Of a stretch of 35,893 nucleotides of DNA, positions 1 to 35,893 are shown one piece after another. Where the stretch lies: positions 1-35,893 of the IMG/VR virus record IMGVR_UViG_3300037487_000459; one strand, given 5' to 3'. The translations under genes and the position numbers were made by a program. This stretch comes from a virus. The first letter of the stretch is position 1. Every line of letters begins with the position of its first letter. The notes under the pieces are model-generated. The model was not told the DNA's origin, ran no database searches, and saw only the letters and a list, made by a program, of their open reading frames with translations.

Positions 1-77
1 TAATACCCAGTTTCCATGTCGTTCTCTGGATGTATTACCAATTTAATCTGTCCGTTAATCAAACAATCTATTTTCAT
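1..77 (-). CDS. Partial small early protein, second allele
   Basis: Only the first 25 codons are present; the gene runs off the left edge. The protein begins MKIDCLINGQIKLVIHPEN, identical to the start of the 71-aa gene at 34683-34898. The DNA differs by three synonymous substitutions in nine bases and by one single-base indel near position 7-10, after which the edge sequence reads GY instead of EV. The synonymous changes suggest a real related strain rather than sequencing noise, while the indel at the very edge may be an assembly fault. Function unknown. Confidence 0.6.
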   Translation of the reverse strand, partial: MKIDCLINGQIKLVIHPENDMETGY

Positions 78-130
78 TGTTTTATAGTTTTAAATTTATA
101 CTTCAAACCTTCGCAAAGCTGAGAGTTATA
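1..130. repeat. Left copy of flank A of the variable locus
   Basis: This stretch matches 34821-34951 apart from three substitutions and one indel. The match ends at GAGAGTTATA (121-130), after which the two copies diverge completely. It carries the 5' end and leader of the small early gene. Taken with the exact match of 482-596 to the right end, it shows that the window ends hold two versions of the same locus. Confidence 0.9.
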
Positions 131-425
131 AGCCATTTCCGATAGTGCCAGTAAAGACAATTTTCGGACTAATTTGCTTACCTCTTTGCTCTAACCATTT
201 TGTATATTTAAAGCCATCATTATATTGCACAATTCTTATTCCTCTCCACCTTACTTTACCTTTTGTAATCTCGCCTTTAATTGGTGGTTCTGCCATTATT
301 CGCAAAGCAGAAGTGAAAATTTCTTCCTCTTTCTTTTGTTGCTCCGAAATAAAACGGCTTATAACATCGGCTATATTCAAGCTGGGCATTTCGGGTAAAT
401 CAAAGTTTAGTTTTTCTAATTTCAT
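126..425 (-). CDS. Cassette-like ORF, unknown 99-aa protein
   Basis: I do not recognise the family. The 99-aa product has an acidic, probably helical N-terminal half (a QQKKEEE stretch near residues 29-35) and a basic C-terminal half rich in aromatic residues (VRWRGIRIVQYNDGFKYTKW). No signal peptide or membrane segment is seen. Its stop codon lies inside the GTTATA boundary that ends flank A, and its start is about 57 bases from the GTT beginning flank B, so it fills one version of the variable locus exactly. At the other end the same place holds two different ORFs. This suggests exchangeable cargo. The hairpin expected upstream of its start is weak and degenerate. Confidence 0.6.
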   Translation of the reverse strand: MKLEKLNFDLPEMPSLNIADVISRFISEQQKKEEEIFTSALRIMAEPPIKGEITKGKVRWRGIRIVQYNDGFKYTKWLEQRGKQISPKIVFTGTIGNGL

Positions 426-481
426 TTTGTCTTAATTTAAAGTTTCGTTTTCATAATCCCAGCCTAAATATAGCCGAAAAC

Positions 482-596
482 CGTTAGCTGCTATTACCAT
501 TCACCGACAACGTGACCGCTCGGATAAACTGGACTTCCTGCAAATCTTCCAGTAGGTTCTATTGATAATATATCAACGTCTTTACCTTTAAAAAGC
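482..596. repeat. Left copy of flank B, 115-bp exact repeat
   Basis: These 115 bases are identical to 35779-35893, the right end of the window. The identity starts at CG|TTAGCTGC, a G|TT boundary, and continues until the window ends, so the true shared length may be greater. It covers the last codons of the 79-aa ORF. Because it lies 481 bases inside the left end, it is not a simple terminal repeat. It is where two alternative sequences (1-481 and the right end) join the same continuation. Confidence 0.95.
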
Positions 597-733
597 CATT
601 TGATAGTATCTCTAACACCAATTTCGCTATAACATAAACATTCTCTTTCTTCTTTCCATTTTTTACCAGATGGATAATTAAACTGATATTTAACTTTGAA
701 GTATTGATGCTTTCTTTTTTCTCCGTATGCCAT
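494..733 (-). CDS. Cassette-like ORF, unknown 79-aa protein
   Basis: I place the start at the ATG at 733 (MAYGEKRKHQYFKVKYQF), giving 79 aa. A longer reading to 826 would run through the hairpin element at 743-835. The product is basic and rich in aromatic residues, ending GSPVYPSGHVVGEW; its family is not recognised. The ORF forms one cassette-like unit of about 350 bases (484-833). The unit's first bases, GTTAGCTGC (483-491), are complementary at 8 of 9 positions to the box GCTGCTAAC (743-751) at its other end. A partial second copy lies at the right edge of the window. Confidence 0.65.
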   Translation of the reverse strand: MAYGEKRKHQYFKVKYQFNYPSGKKWKEERECLCYSEIGVRDTIKWLFKGKDVDILSIEPTGRFAGSPVYPSGHVVGEW

Positions 734-742
734 AATATAACT

Positions 743-835
743 GCTGCTAACAGCGTGTTTATGCAAGCGGGCGGACAACTTGCGGTTAGTATTTAAGTTC
801 GTGCTATGCCCGCCTGACATAAACACGCAATCATT
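743..835. repeat. attC-like imperfect hairpin (element 1)
   Basis: Reading the plus strand: box GCTGCTAAC (743-751), a 21-nt arm (752-772), a 35-nt loop, a 25-nt arm (808-832), then ATT (833-835) where the other copies have GTT. The outer stem pairs GCGTGTTTATG with CATAAACACGC (11 bp) and the inner stem pairs GCGGGC with GCCCGC, with a one-base bulge between. AAC followed by an A that cannot pair is shared with the elements at 35289-35372 and 35696-35788. The layout resembles an integron attC site, but the arm asymmetry is not that of class 1 sites. The G-to-A change may mark a decayed array end. Confidence 0.7.
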
Positions 836-6721: not shown

Positions 6722-6997
6722 TTACTTCTTCGTTACCTTCGTTGCCATGAGTGAGTTGAACACTCTGCCATCTGGCATCTGCCGACCTCTGAGTTGAAAC
6801 TCTACATCAACAACATCGCCTTCCGAAAGGAAGTCAAGTTGATCCGTATTAGACTGCGTAAGTTCAAACTTTAAGAATTGGGGATAAGAATCTCCCATCT
6901 TCACGACAAATTCTTTCTTCTTGAACTTGTCGCTGATTTGCATCGTCTCAGCGATTGAAACGATTGTTGCATTGCTGCCTGTGGTTGTGTGTGTCAT
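6722..6997 (-). CDS. DUF3127 family, probable ssDNA-binding OB protein
   Basis: A 91-aa protein of the DUF3127 type, common in Bacteroidota and their phages. Recognisable features are KKEFVVKMGDSYPQFLKFEL near residues 27-46 and the GDVVDVEFQLRGRQ segment followed by a short C-terminal strand, matching the family's compact OB-like pattern. The family has no proven function that I can cite. Its place after an ERF annealase and a Gp157-like protein suggests single-strand DNA binding during recombination or replication. It is last in this operon: its start overlaps the Gp157-like stop as ATGA, and a terminator follows its own stop. Confidence 0.8.
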   Translation of the reverse strand: MTHTTTGSNATIVSIAETMQISDKFKKKEFVVKMGDSYPQFLKFELTQSNTDQLDFLSEGDVVDVEFQLRGRQMPDGRVFNSLMATKVTKK

Positions 6998-7476
6998 TTG
7001 ATTTGGATTGATTGATTAGTTGTTAATGTTGCTCCTGGTACATTGATACCCATCTCGATTGCTTTCTTGATGTCAGTCTTTGAGATTGTAGGTATCCATG
7101 ACTTGTATTGAGATGGTATCTCGTTCTCGTCAAATATCATTACTGATTTGCTCTTACGGAACGATATGGAGTGAGTTGTGTCTTTTATCTTGTCTATGTT
7201 CAACTGCTCCATTGCATCGCTTAGATTCAATCTAAGGCGGTTTGCGAGGTTCTCCCTCAGCTTGCGGATGTCAGCAAGTTCTTTCTCTCTTACTCGGATG
7301 GTTTCTGCCTCCGCTTCCAGAGTGCGAATGAACTTAGCATAGTTGATTCCTTTCTCCTGAATAGACATCTCGGACATCTGCAATGCTTGCTCCATGTCTG
7401 GTGTCAGCTCGCCACCTGCCTCAATGATGTTATTGAGGAGGGTTAAGTGTGTATGTGTGATTTCGTATAGGTTCAT
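6994..7476 (-). CDS. Gp157-like recombination-associated protein
   Basis: A 160-aa protein resembling the siphovirus Gp157 family. The N-terminal two thirds are helical and probably coiled-coil (about residues 20-105, rich in E, R and L). A short beta-rich tail follows: THSISFRKSKSVMIFDENEIPSQY, then SKTDIKKAIEMGINVPGATL and a last strand. This order of a long coiled coil, a phenotypic S-x-S-V-x-I strand and a K-x-x-I-K-x-x-I-K-x-G motif is typical of the family. Family members sit beside ERF or SSB-type genes, as here. The exact role is unknown. Confidence 0.8.
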   Translation of the reverse strand: MNLYEITHTHLTLLNNIIEAGGELTPDMEQALQMSEMSIQEKGINYAKFIRTLEAEAETIRVREKELADIRKLRENLANRLRLNLSDAMEQLNIDKIKDTTHSISFRKSKSVMIFDENEIPSQYKSWIPTISKTDIKKAIEMGINVPGATLTTNQSIQIK

Positions 7477-34686: not shown

Positions 34687-34898
34687 TGTTCTTCAATTTT
34701 ACTTGACAAAACTTCTTGCGGTTTACGTTCAATCATTATGGCATGCGTTATTGTCTTGCCTAATATCTGAACGCTGCTTCTTATTTCGCTGAGCATGTTA
34801 TCCTGTTTCATTAATTGCTTTAATACCTCAGTTTCCATGTCGTTCTCTGGATGGATAACTAATTTAATCTGTCCGTTAATCAAACAATCTATTTTCAT
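34683..34898 (-). CDS. Unknown 71-aa early protein, full allele
   Basis: Not recognised. It starts with a strand pair (MKIDCLINGQIKLVIHPEN) and ends in a helical part with LGKTITHAIMIERK. It is the first gene after the variable cassette-like locus and is present in both versions, with only synonymous differences in the shared N-terminal part. Its leader lies in flank A, so its expression might depend on what is inserted upstream. Confidence 0.65.
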   Translation of the reverse strand: MKIDCLINGQIKLVIHPENDMETEVLKQLMKQDNMLSEIRSSVQILGKTITHAIMIERKPQEVLSSKIEEQ

Positions 34899-34951
34899 TG
34901 TTTTATAGTTTTAAATTTATACTTCAAACCTTCGCAAAGCTGAGAGTTATA
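34821..34951. repeat. Right copy of flank A of the variable locus
   Basis: Matches 1-130, apart from three substitutions and one indel. Its end, GAGAG|TTATA, is the boundary after which this version contains the 102-aa ORF. The G|TT at 34946-34947 is the predicted exchange point. Confidence 0.9.
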
Positions 34952-34959
34952 TTCAAGTT

Positions 34960-35268
34960 TTAAAAATTTGCCACCGCACCCTTAATCCTTGATAATAATT
35001 CTTTCGCCTGTTTCAATTCGGCTCTAACTTCATCACAAGGTGCATATTCGGCTTTTAGCATTTTATCAAAATATTCCTCATTCACTATTGCGCCTTTATC
35101 TACAAATTTGATAAATCCCGTATCATTAAAAGTTATCGTATTTATGTAAGCCATTATGATAGCATTAACTTTTTCGCCATCAAATATTACATCTTCTGTT
35201 CTGCAATCAAATTGTCCATCGCCAACTTGTCGCTTAAATGTGTATTGTTCTTTTTTATCTATTTCCAT
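34960..35268 (-). CDS. Cassette-like ORF, unknown 102-aa protein
   Basis: Not recognised. The first half is strand-like (YTFKRQVGDGQFDCRTEDV...), and the C-terminal 30 residues form an amphipathic helix (DEVRAELKQAKELLSRIKGAV). It fills a unit of about 418 bases (34947-35364). The unit starts with GTTATATT (34946-34953), whose exact complement, AATATAAC (35290-35297), begins the hairpin at the other end. One or no copy is present in the other version of the locus. Confidence 0.65.
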   Translation of the reverse strand: MEIDKKEQYTFKRQVGDGQFDCRTEDVIFDGEKVNAIIMAYINTITFNDTGFIKFVDKGAIVNEEYFDKMLKAEYAPCDEVRAELKQAKELLSRIKGAVANF

Positions 35269-35288
35269 CGCTTAAATTTTTAAAACCT

Positions 35289-35372
35289 AAATATAACACA
35301 ACCTAAAATCAAACCGCCACATACTAACCGCTTATAAAGGCGGTCAGCTTTTAGCTTGATGCCGTTATCGGC
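35289..35372. repeat. attC-like imperfect hairpin (element 2)
   Basis: Plus-strand layout: AAATATAAC (35289-35297), 21-nt arm (35298-35318), 20-nt loop, 25-nt arm (35339-35363), GTTATCGGC (35364-35372). The arms pair at 16 of the 20 inner positions (ending ACCGCC/GGCGGT), and after AAC the first arm starts with A, three paired bases, then a C that cannot pair. The same A-NNN-C mismatch pattern is found in element 3. Confidence 0.75.
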
Positions 35373-35376
35373 AACC

Positions 35377-35652
35377 CTATGACTTCATCCAGTTATCAAT
35401 TTCCGACTTTAAAAACCTTAACTTTTTACCACCCTTGTGAACAGGTATTTTACTTGAATTTACCCATCCATAAACCGTTGCTTTACTTGGTTGGTCTGGC
35501 ATGTATTCGCATAATTCATTTAAGTTCATCCACCTATCAGGGGTTTCTTCTTGTTTTAATTCTTTCAATTCTGCCAAAACTTTTTTGACACTTTTTTCAA
35601 TTAGCACCTCTAATTCTTCGGGTGTAATTTGTACGATTGTTACTGCTTGCAT
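35377..35652 (-). CDS. Cassette-like ORF, HTH_17/excisionase-type protein
   Basis: A 91-aa DNA-binding protein. Residues 1-40 are helical and may dimerise. Residues about 42-90 are a MerR-like winged HTH of the kind found in excisionases and in Bacteroidota mobile elements: MNLNELCEYM, SKATVYGWVNSSKIPVHKGG, KLRFLKSEIDNWM. It could direct recombination or control its neighbours. It fills a unit of about 416 bases (35365-35780) whose first bases, GTTATCGGC, are the exact complement of GCCGATAAC (35699-35707) at its far end. Confidence 0.85.
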   Translation of the reverse strand: MQAVTIVQITPEELEVLIEKSVKKVLAELKELKQEETPDRWMNLNELCEYMPDQPSKATVYGWVNSSKIPVHKGGKKLRFLKSEIDNWMKS

Positions 35653-35695
35653 TTTGTTTTTATTTTAAATTGTTAATATTAATTCCGAAAGAAGG

Positions 35696-35788
35696 GCAGC
35701 CGATAACAGCACATTTGAGAAATTGGCTACCCTCGCTCAATTCCCACGCTAAAAAGCCAACTTCACAAATCTGCAAATCGTTAGCTGC
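35696..35788. repeat. attC-like imperfect hairpin (element 3)
   Basis: Plus-strand layout: GCAGCCGATAAC (35696-35707), 21-nt arm (35708-35728), 26-nt loop, 25-nt arm (35755-35779), GTTAGCTGC (35780-35788). The inner 16 positions pair at 14 (ATTTG, GAA, TTGGCT). The arm begins A-GCA-C against T-GCA-G, the same two mismatches as element 2. The final GTT is where flank B, shared with the left end, begins. Confidence 0.75.
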
Positions 35789-35893
35789 TATTACCATTCA
35801 CCGACAACGTGACCGCTCGGATAAACTGGACTTCCTGCAAATCTTCCAGTAGGTTCTATTGATAATATATCAACGTCTTTACCTTTAAAAAGC
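35779..35893. repeat. Right copy of flank B, 115-bp exact repeat
   Basis: Identical to 482-596 and running to the window's end. The identity begins at CG|TT. It shows that this end continues into the sequence after position 596, which would close the genome into a circle of about 35.3 kb. Confidence 0.95.
35791..35893 (-). CDS. Partial 79-aa ORF, second copy
   Basis: The last 33 codons of the ORF found complete at 494-733, with identical bases. The rest is outside the window. It is the same gene seen again because the window's ends overlap, not an independent paralogue. Confidence 0.8.
   Translation of the reverse strand, partial: LFKGKDVDILSIEPTGRFAGSPVYPSGHVVGEW

Follow-up and report, generated by a model that had tools for sequence, protein, structure and literature searches.

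The stretch of DNA analyzed here (the window, a virus contig of 35,893 bp from IMG/VR) carries related flanks at its two ends. Positions 1-130, which include flank A, are ~97% identical to 34821-34951, with four substitutions or gaps that all fall in the outer 45 bp and with the last ~90 bp identical, and positions 482-596, which include flank B, equal 35779-35893 over 115 bp (100%). The preliminary description had reported both as matches; the identity of flank B stands, and the match of flank A must be read with these four differences. It had also proposed that the DNA between the flanks is unrelated and that the breakpoints lie at G^TT on both sides, and both observations are borne out. Positions 126-483 encode a 99-aa ORF and positions 34947-35780 a 102-aa and a 91-aa ORF, all on the minus strand, and the plus strand reads G^TT, complementary to TAA^C, the cut sequence of the coding (minus) strand, at 125/126, 483/484, 34946/34947 and 35780/35781. 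The right-end version does contain the two ORFs described, but they belong to two cassettes, separated at 35364/35365 by a further G^TT. From these coordinates, a circular genome carrying the right-end allele would measure 35,297 bp, and one carrying the left-end allele 34,821 bp. The features of the locus are collected in Table 1.

Table 1. Flanks, cassettes, ORFs and attC-like sites at the two ends of the window (bit scores refer to covariance model R1, described below)
Feature	Position	Strand	Basis or remark
Flank A, left copy	1..125	-	conserved phage sequence, hairpin-less attI-like array end; 97% identical to 34821-34946
Cassette L, 358 bp, left-end allele	126..483	-	G^TT bounds (TAA^C on minus strand)
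99-aa ORF, cassette L	126..425	-	start in hairpin loop; end on TAA of cassette-end box
attC-like site, cassette L	356..490	-	arms 367-386 / 458-477, 90% complementary; 106.8 bits, training sequence
Cassette P, common to both alleles, upstream array end	484..834	-	110-aa ORF 494-826
attC-like site, cassette P	742..834	-	upstream TAAC box decayed; fold; 37.7 bits, E 4.8e-5, not training sequence
Flank A, right copy	34821..34946	-	alignment to left copy
Cassette R1, 418 bp, right-end allele, adjoins flank A	34947..35364	-	G^TT bounds
102-aa ORF, cassette R1	34960..35268	-	ORF list
attC-like site, cassette R1	35288..35371	-	42.2 bits, not training sequence
Cassette R2, 416 bp, right-end allele	35365..35780	-	G^TT bounds
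91-aa predicted HTH_17 / excisionase-like DNA-binding protein, cassette R2	35377..35652	-	PF12728 E 1.1e-9; phrog_668 1.6e-10
attC-like site, cassette R2	35698..35787	-	66.9 bits, training sequence
Flank B, right copy = end of cassette P	35781..35893	-	identical to 484-596

The 99-aa ORF of cassette L has no match in Pfam or PHROG, and neither collection places the 102-aa ORF of cassette R1 in a family with confidence. Elsewhere in the window, positions 1205-2980 encode a cytosine methyltransferase of 591 aa with an unusually long middle region and a split Pfam domain match, and a perfect 11-bp inverted repeat (CAATCACGAAC / GTTCGTGATTG, 1116-1126 / 1169-1179) lies between this gene and a 78-aa gene.

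Each unit that starts after a plus-strand G^TT opens with about 13 bases that complement a box further along the same unit. Positions 125-138 complement 352-365 in cassette L, 34946-34969 complement 35274-35297 (92% of 24 nt) in cassette R1 and 35360-35378 complement 35693-35711 in cassette R2, and an imperfect hairpin lies between each cassette's box and the next G^TT. The end boxes fit their own cassette best, with 8 (cassette L), 7, 7 and 6 of 9 outer positions complementary and at most 5 in any other pairing. A hairpin detector defined as AAC, arms and GTT gives the sites of cassettes L, R1 and R2 as its three best matches in the whole 35.9 kb (scores 16, 14 and 12), against only two matches scoring at least 12 in 20 dinucleotide-preserving shuffles of the window. 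The site of cassette R1 includes a stretch that is 87% identical in another phage contig.

Relatives of the window phage were collected through its methyltransferase and primase genes; a search with its sigma-like gene returned a single contig, covering the wrong side of the locus, and the window flanks were not found in the other viral contigs searched, a set from which near-identical records may be missing. The hairpin detector reports 44 sites at a score of at least 15 in these relatives and none in shuffles. An alignment of 51 sites, taken from IMG/VR phages and the window only, was used to build covariance model R1. In the aligned sites 89.7% of cells are paired, versus 63.5% in shuffles and less than 47% in slid structures, a signal that is partly due to selection because the sites had been pre-selected for pairing; compensatory change and heavy covariation extend throughout the stem. 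On the coding strand the consensus site reads TAA^C-G(G/T)TTT-stem-loop-stem-T-GTTA, G.T wobbles being frequent in its stem, and a whole cassette can be written as C-G(G/T)TTT-[hairpin]-T-GTTANNNGC...-gene-...GCNNNTAA. The model finds 73 sites in 2.06 Mb. When the folding of the two strands is compared, the strand on which the model was built is the better one in 92 of 107 phage sites, a strong bias, and in 51 of 83 host sites, a weak one. A class 1 integron region yields no match to the model, although it is a weak control with few attC sites. Over 87 cassettes, some of them shared between phages, the end box pairs with its own cassette at 0.80 of the nine outer positions, versus 0.31 with the upstream neighbor and 0.345±0.017 under random pairing, and one position is nearly always a G.T wobble. 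Such complementarity between the two ends of a cassette, evident here from the comparison of sequences, is the imprint that a circular intermediate with joined ends would be expected to leave.

When searched for in a phage collection, the typed consensus matches only Flavobacterium phages, and in nine Flavobacterium phages from the Baltic Sea, which lie outside its training set, covariance model R1 locates about 10-15 sites per phage; it also locates several in phage 6H. These sites are nearly all on one strand of a single early region. In pairwise comparisons between phages all nine indels, which range from 343 bp to 5.5 kb and are not all independent events, break at TAAC, and 34 cassettes are shared among 15 phages. 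A 439-bp cassette is present in sniff9-1 and absent from sniff9-2. Cassette F, 439 bp in length, is identical in five phages; it sits mid-array in sniff9-1, lillamy9-1, lillamy9-6 and morran9-1, and in lillamy9-7 it is the last of the array, adjoining the conserved flank, that is, the end that is polymorphic in the window. The hairpin-less TAAC at this array end receives several of the insertions. Comparison of the phage genomes thus shows a common site family, a cut position, and units that have been gained, lost and relocated whole between near-identical isolates. The paper describing these phages mentions neither integrons nor cassettes.

Ordinary phage mosaicism, in which homologous or illegitimate recombination between repeated hairpins would exchange the units with no dedicated site-specific enzyme, might draw on the short conserved stretches common to the sites, on the 4-12 bp of microhomology at junctions and on the recombination proteins, such as those of the NinG type, that the phages themselves encode. 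The nine indel comparisons, however, break at TAAC and not anywhere along the 130-nt site, the cassette ends complement their own box and not that of a neighbor, and cassette F has been relocated to the array end as an identical unit, so that we consider mosaicism a distinctly unlikely source of the pattern.

The same comparisons bear on the window itself. Because its breaks coincide with cassette boundaries, where cultured relatives gain, lose and move cassettes, the proposal of the preliminary description that the two ends are alternative versions of one locus is strongly supported by the sequence comparison. It did not recognize the alleles as attC-like cassettes, nor the way in which they would be exchanged. 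Since the two copies of flank A are not identical, the left end would come from a slightly different strain. These four differences also favor the idea that the left end is an assembly chimera, in which the cassette of another phage was joined through the 115-bp shared repeat. We find this unlikely, though less so than mosaicism, as both breaks fall exactly on cassette boundaries; moreover, even a chimera would still represent a second allele, one contributed by a closely related phage of that sample. The arrangement of the contig suggests that the genome is circular and that both versions coexisted.

The cassette content of the cultured phages includes several DNA methyltransferases, one of which (cassette V) is missing from lillamy9-1 and morran9-1. 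According to one study (PMC7077304), some LMO9 phages plate 3-4 orders lower on LMO6, which its authors tie to a missing methyltransferase; lillamy9-1 and morran9-1 were for this reason re-grown on LMO6, after which they plate equally on both hosts. The absence of cassette V and the LMO6 plating history of these two phages are correlated.

The site family is not confined to phages. A search of bacterial genomes with a degenerate pattern finds at least 119 stretches, which by title come almost exclusively from Bacteroidota, Chlorobi or Ignavibacteria, and chosen whole genomes hold arrays of up to ~100 sites. In an even sample of the phylum, 37 of 61 Bacteroidota genomes have sites, and host cassettes display the same own-end complementarity as those of phages. 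The pattern also occurs in a Thermoproteota MAG contig (L215), which probably reflects Bacteroidota contamination. The orientation of the cassette genes differs sharply between the two settings. In phages the gene is on the strand of covariance model R1 in 87 of 95 cassettes (1 opposite, 7 ambiguous), and 41 of these 87 genes start inside the site, whereas in 56 of 59 chromosomal cassettes the gene is on the other strand (2:56 for the R1 strand versus the other). Given these opposite orientations, simple capture of host cassettes does not account for those of phages. Some long chromosomal sites (L340:6710-6845, L339:13146-13281 and L335:12888-13024) have an apical loop of ~70 nt with a repeated AGCACtaAtgTTcAatTT-like motif, which could provide extra binding sites for a recombinase; in phage sites this loop often holds the start codon.

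In 15 of 20 genomes, sites lie within about 10 kb of the best IntI-like recombinase; the other five have no site near it, although two of these are cut off by contig ends. By comparison, no site occurs in the 368 kb that surround 20 other recombinases of the Xer type encoded in these genomes (15/20 versus 0/20, Fisher p 8e-7). Because the genomes were chosen for holding sites, this comparison shows linkage between recombinase and array at the sequence level, and not the prevalence of the enzyme. Co-location was used for this purpose because TIGR02249, considered as a presence test, was dropped for matching all controls through their Xer proteins. The array-linked recombinases are mostly 275-602 aa long, with invariant catalytic R, K, H, R, H and Y residues, and reach 204-220 bits with the XerA and IntI models, short of the cut-off of either (204-209 bits for TIGR02249, versus a cut-off of 265). 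In a phylogenetic tree they are set apart from XerC/D with full support; IntI1, represented by a reference sequence 100% identical to the annotated intI1, falls on their side, but its long branch makes this placement uncertain. Structure prediction yields a fold that matches XerA (Z 22.6) and IntI4 (Z 20.7, with an rmsd of 4.3 over 260). For the N-terminal domain, searched as part of the protein, VIA-align lists no fold. The N-terminus of the enzyme encoded at L337:6215-7342 and longer homologs in L339, L350 and L356 contain one or more repeats that resemble HARP by eye and match no Pfam family. In L339 a gene for a single-strand DNA-binding protein (ssb, 6934-7281) is directly downstream of the array-linked recombinase, which is suggestive of a single-strand substrate. 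On the other hand, the ~43-residue insertion that carries the I2 helix in IntI is absent from these enzymes, which makes their use of hairpin DNA uncertain.

The presence of a tyrosine recombinase with all its catalytic residues beside the host arrays also bears on a further explanation. IS200/IS605 elements move through asymmetric hairpins in a subterminal position and a cleavage motif that is short and fixed, features that the present sites resemble, and a Y1 (HUH) transposase acting in trans could conceivably cut hairpin-flanked units after TAA. The linked enzyme is, however, of a different kind, and the palindromic boxes lie at both ends of the units, as in attC, so that single-strand transposition appears very improbable. 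As for the phages, a PF00589 recombinase is absent from the window and from 32 of the 33 other phage records searched, the only match being a 180-aa frame in phage 6H. The host, therefore, probably supplies the enzyme.

Taken together, these results lead us to favor, with good confidence, an explanation in which a Bacteroidota phage carries a small integron-like array of gene cassettes, the locus forms the end of this array, and the contig has captured two of its cassette contents. According to this model, the joined ends of a free cassette circle would form one long imperfect palindrome akin to attC, and a tyrosine recombinase would cut it at TAA^C (read as G^TT on the opposite strand), excising and inserting cassettes, possibly through single-stranded intermediates. 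Insertion would often take place at the hairpin-less array end adjoining flank A. The enzyme would most likely be supplied in trans by a chromosomal array of the host, which adjoins the gene for a distinct IntI/XerA-like recombinase, and anti-restriction and regulatory cargo may have been selected for.

On a broader scale, it can be postulated that the Bacteroidota have a widespread integron lineage of their own, with a folded-site recombinase devoid of the IntI I2 domain, and that their virulent phages hold a separate pool of inverted cassettes reshuffled by host recombinases, a proposition that we consider about as likely as not. If true, this pool would give phages a plug-in arsenal made up of regulatory and anti-restriction genes. 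For phage biology, the system offers a candidate mechanism by which virulent phages could rapidly exchange genes. The occurrence of the site family in 37 of 61 Bacteroidota genomes is to be set against the one complete integron that IntegronFinder 2.0 reports in Bacteroidetes proper, besides those in Chlorobi and Ignavibacteriae (PMC9024848), and standard integron surveys seem to have largely missed the system. The open-access journal literature searched contains no description of a Bacteroidota cassette system. Moreover, IntI is considered to have acquired the capacity for single-strand recombination through the I2 helix (PMC7790495). Should the linked recombinase act on hairpins without it, this accepted account of how integrases gained that capacity would become open to a direct test with natural proteins.

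The system can be compared with several known ones. The attC clusters without integrase (CALINs) described by Qi et al. (2023, PMC9892861) likewise occur in virulent phages and carry methyltransferases, and the window phage, with several attC-like sites and no PF00589 match, may resemble them in this respect, a CALIN being defined by two or more attC sites without an integrase. That study, whose text names no Flavobacterium phage, lists 17 CALINs among 10,705 phages and shows that attC2 of the Bacteroidota phage P12002L recombines with IntI1 (PMC9892861). Covariance model R1 finds no site of the present family in P12002L, and hence this experiment is not transferable to it. With integrons proper, the present system shares presumably circularizable cassettes in tandem arrays, an apparent tendency to insertion at one end and, in host chromosomes but not in the window, a site-specific tyrosine recombinase beside the array; the cut site likewise delimits the units that move, as the gain, loss and relocation of cassettes in cultured phages indicate, and the sites, like attC, are foldable imperfect palindromes that contain R boxes and are cut at G^TT, which corresponds to AA^C on the strand that folds. 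Unlike integron attC, they present a box complementary over 13 nt that includes a fixed G.T wobble, a stem in which G.T pairs are conserved, and a 5-nt/1-nt spacer asymmetry that sets them apart from the attC of class 1 integrons. Also unlike in integrons, the array-linked recombinase is co-directional with the chromosomal cassette genes, and the gene of phage cassettes is inverted, its start codon often lying inside the hairpin. Since the IntI-specific domain was tested for and not found, the system is not filed as a canonical integron, though it is integron-like in its working. The closest match of the array-linked enzyme in both sequence and fold is XerA, the archaeal Xer (NF040815, PDB 5hxy), from which it differs in adjoining cassette arrays, in its extra N-terminal domain and in a C-terminal SPLD motif that it has in common with IntI1.
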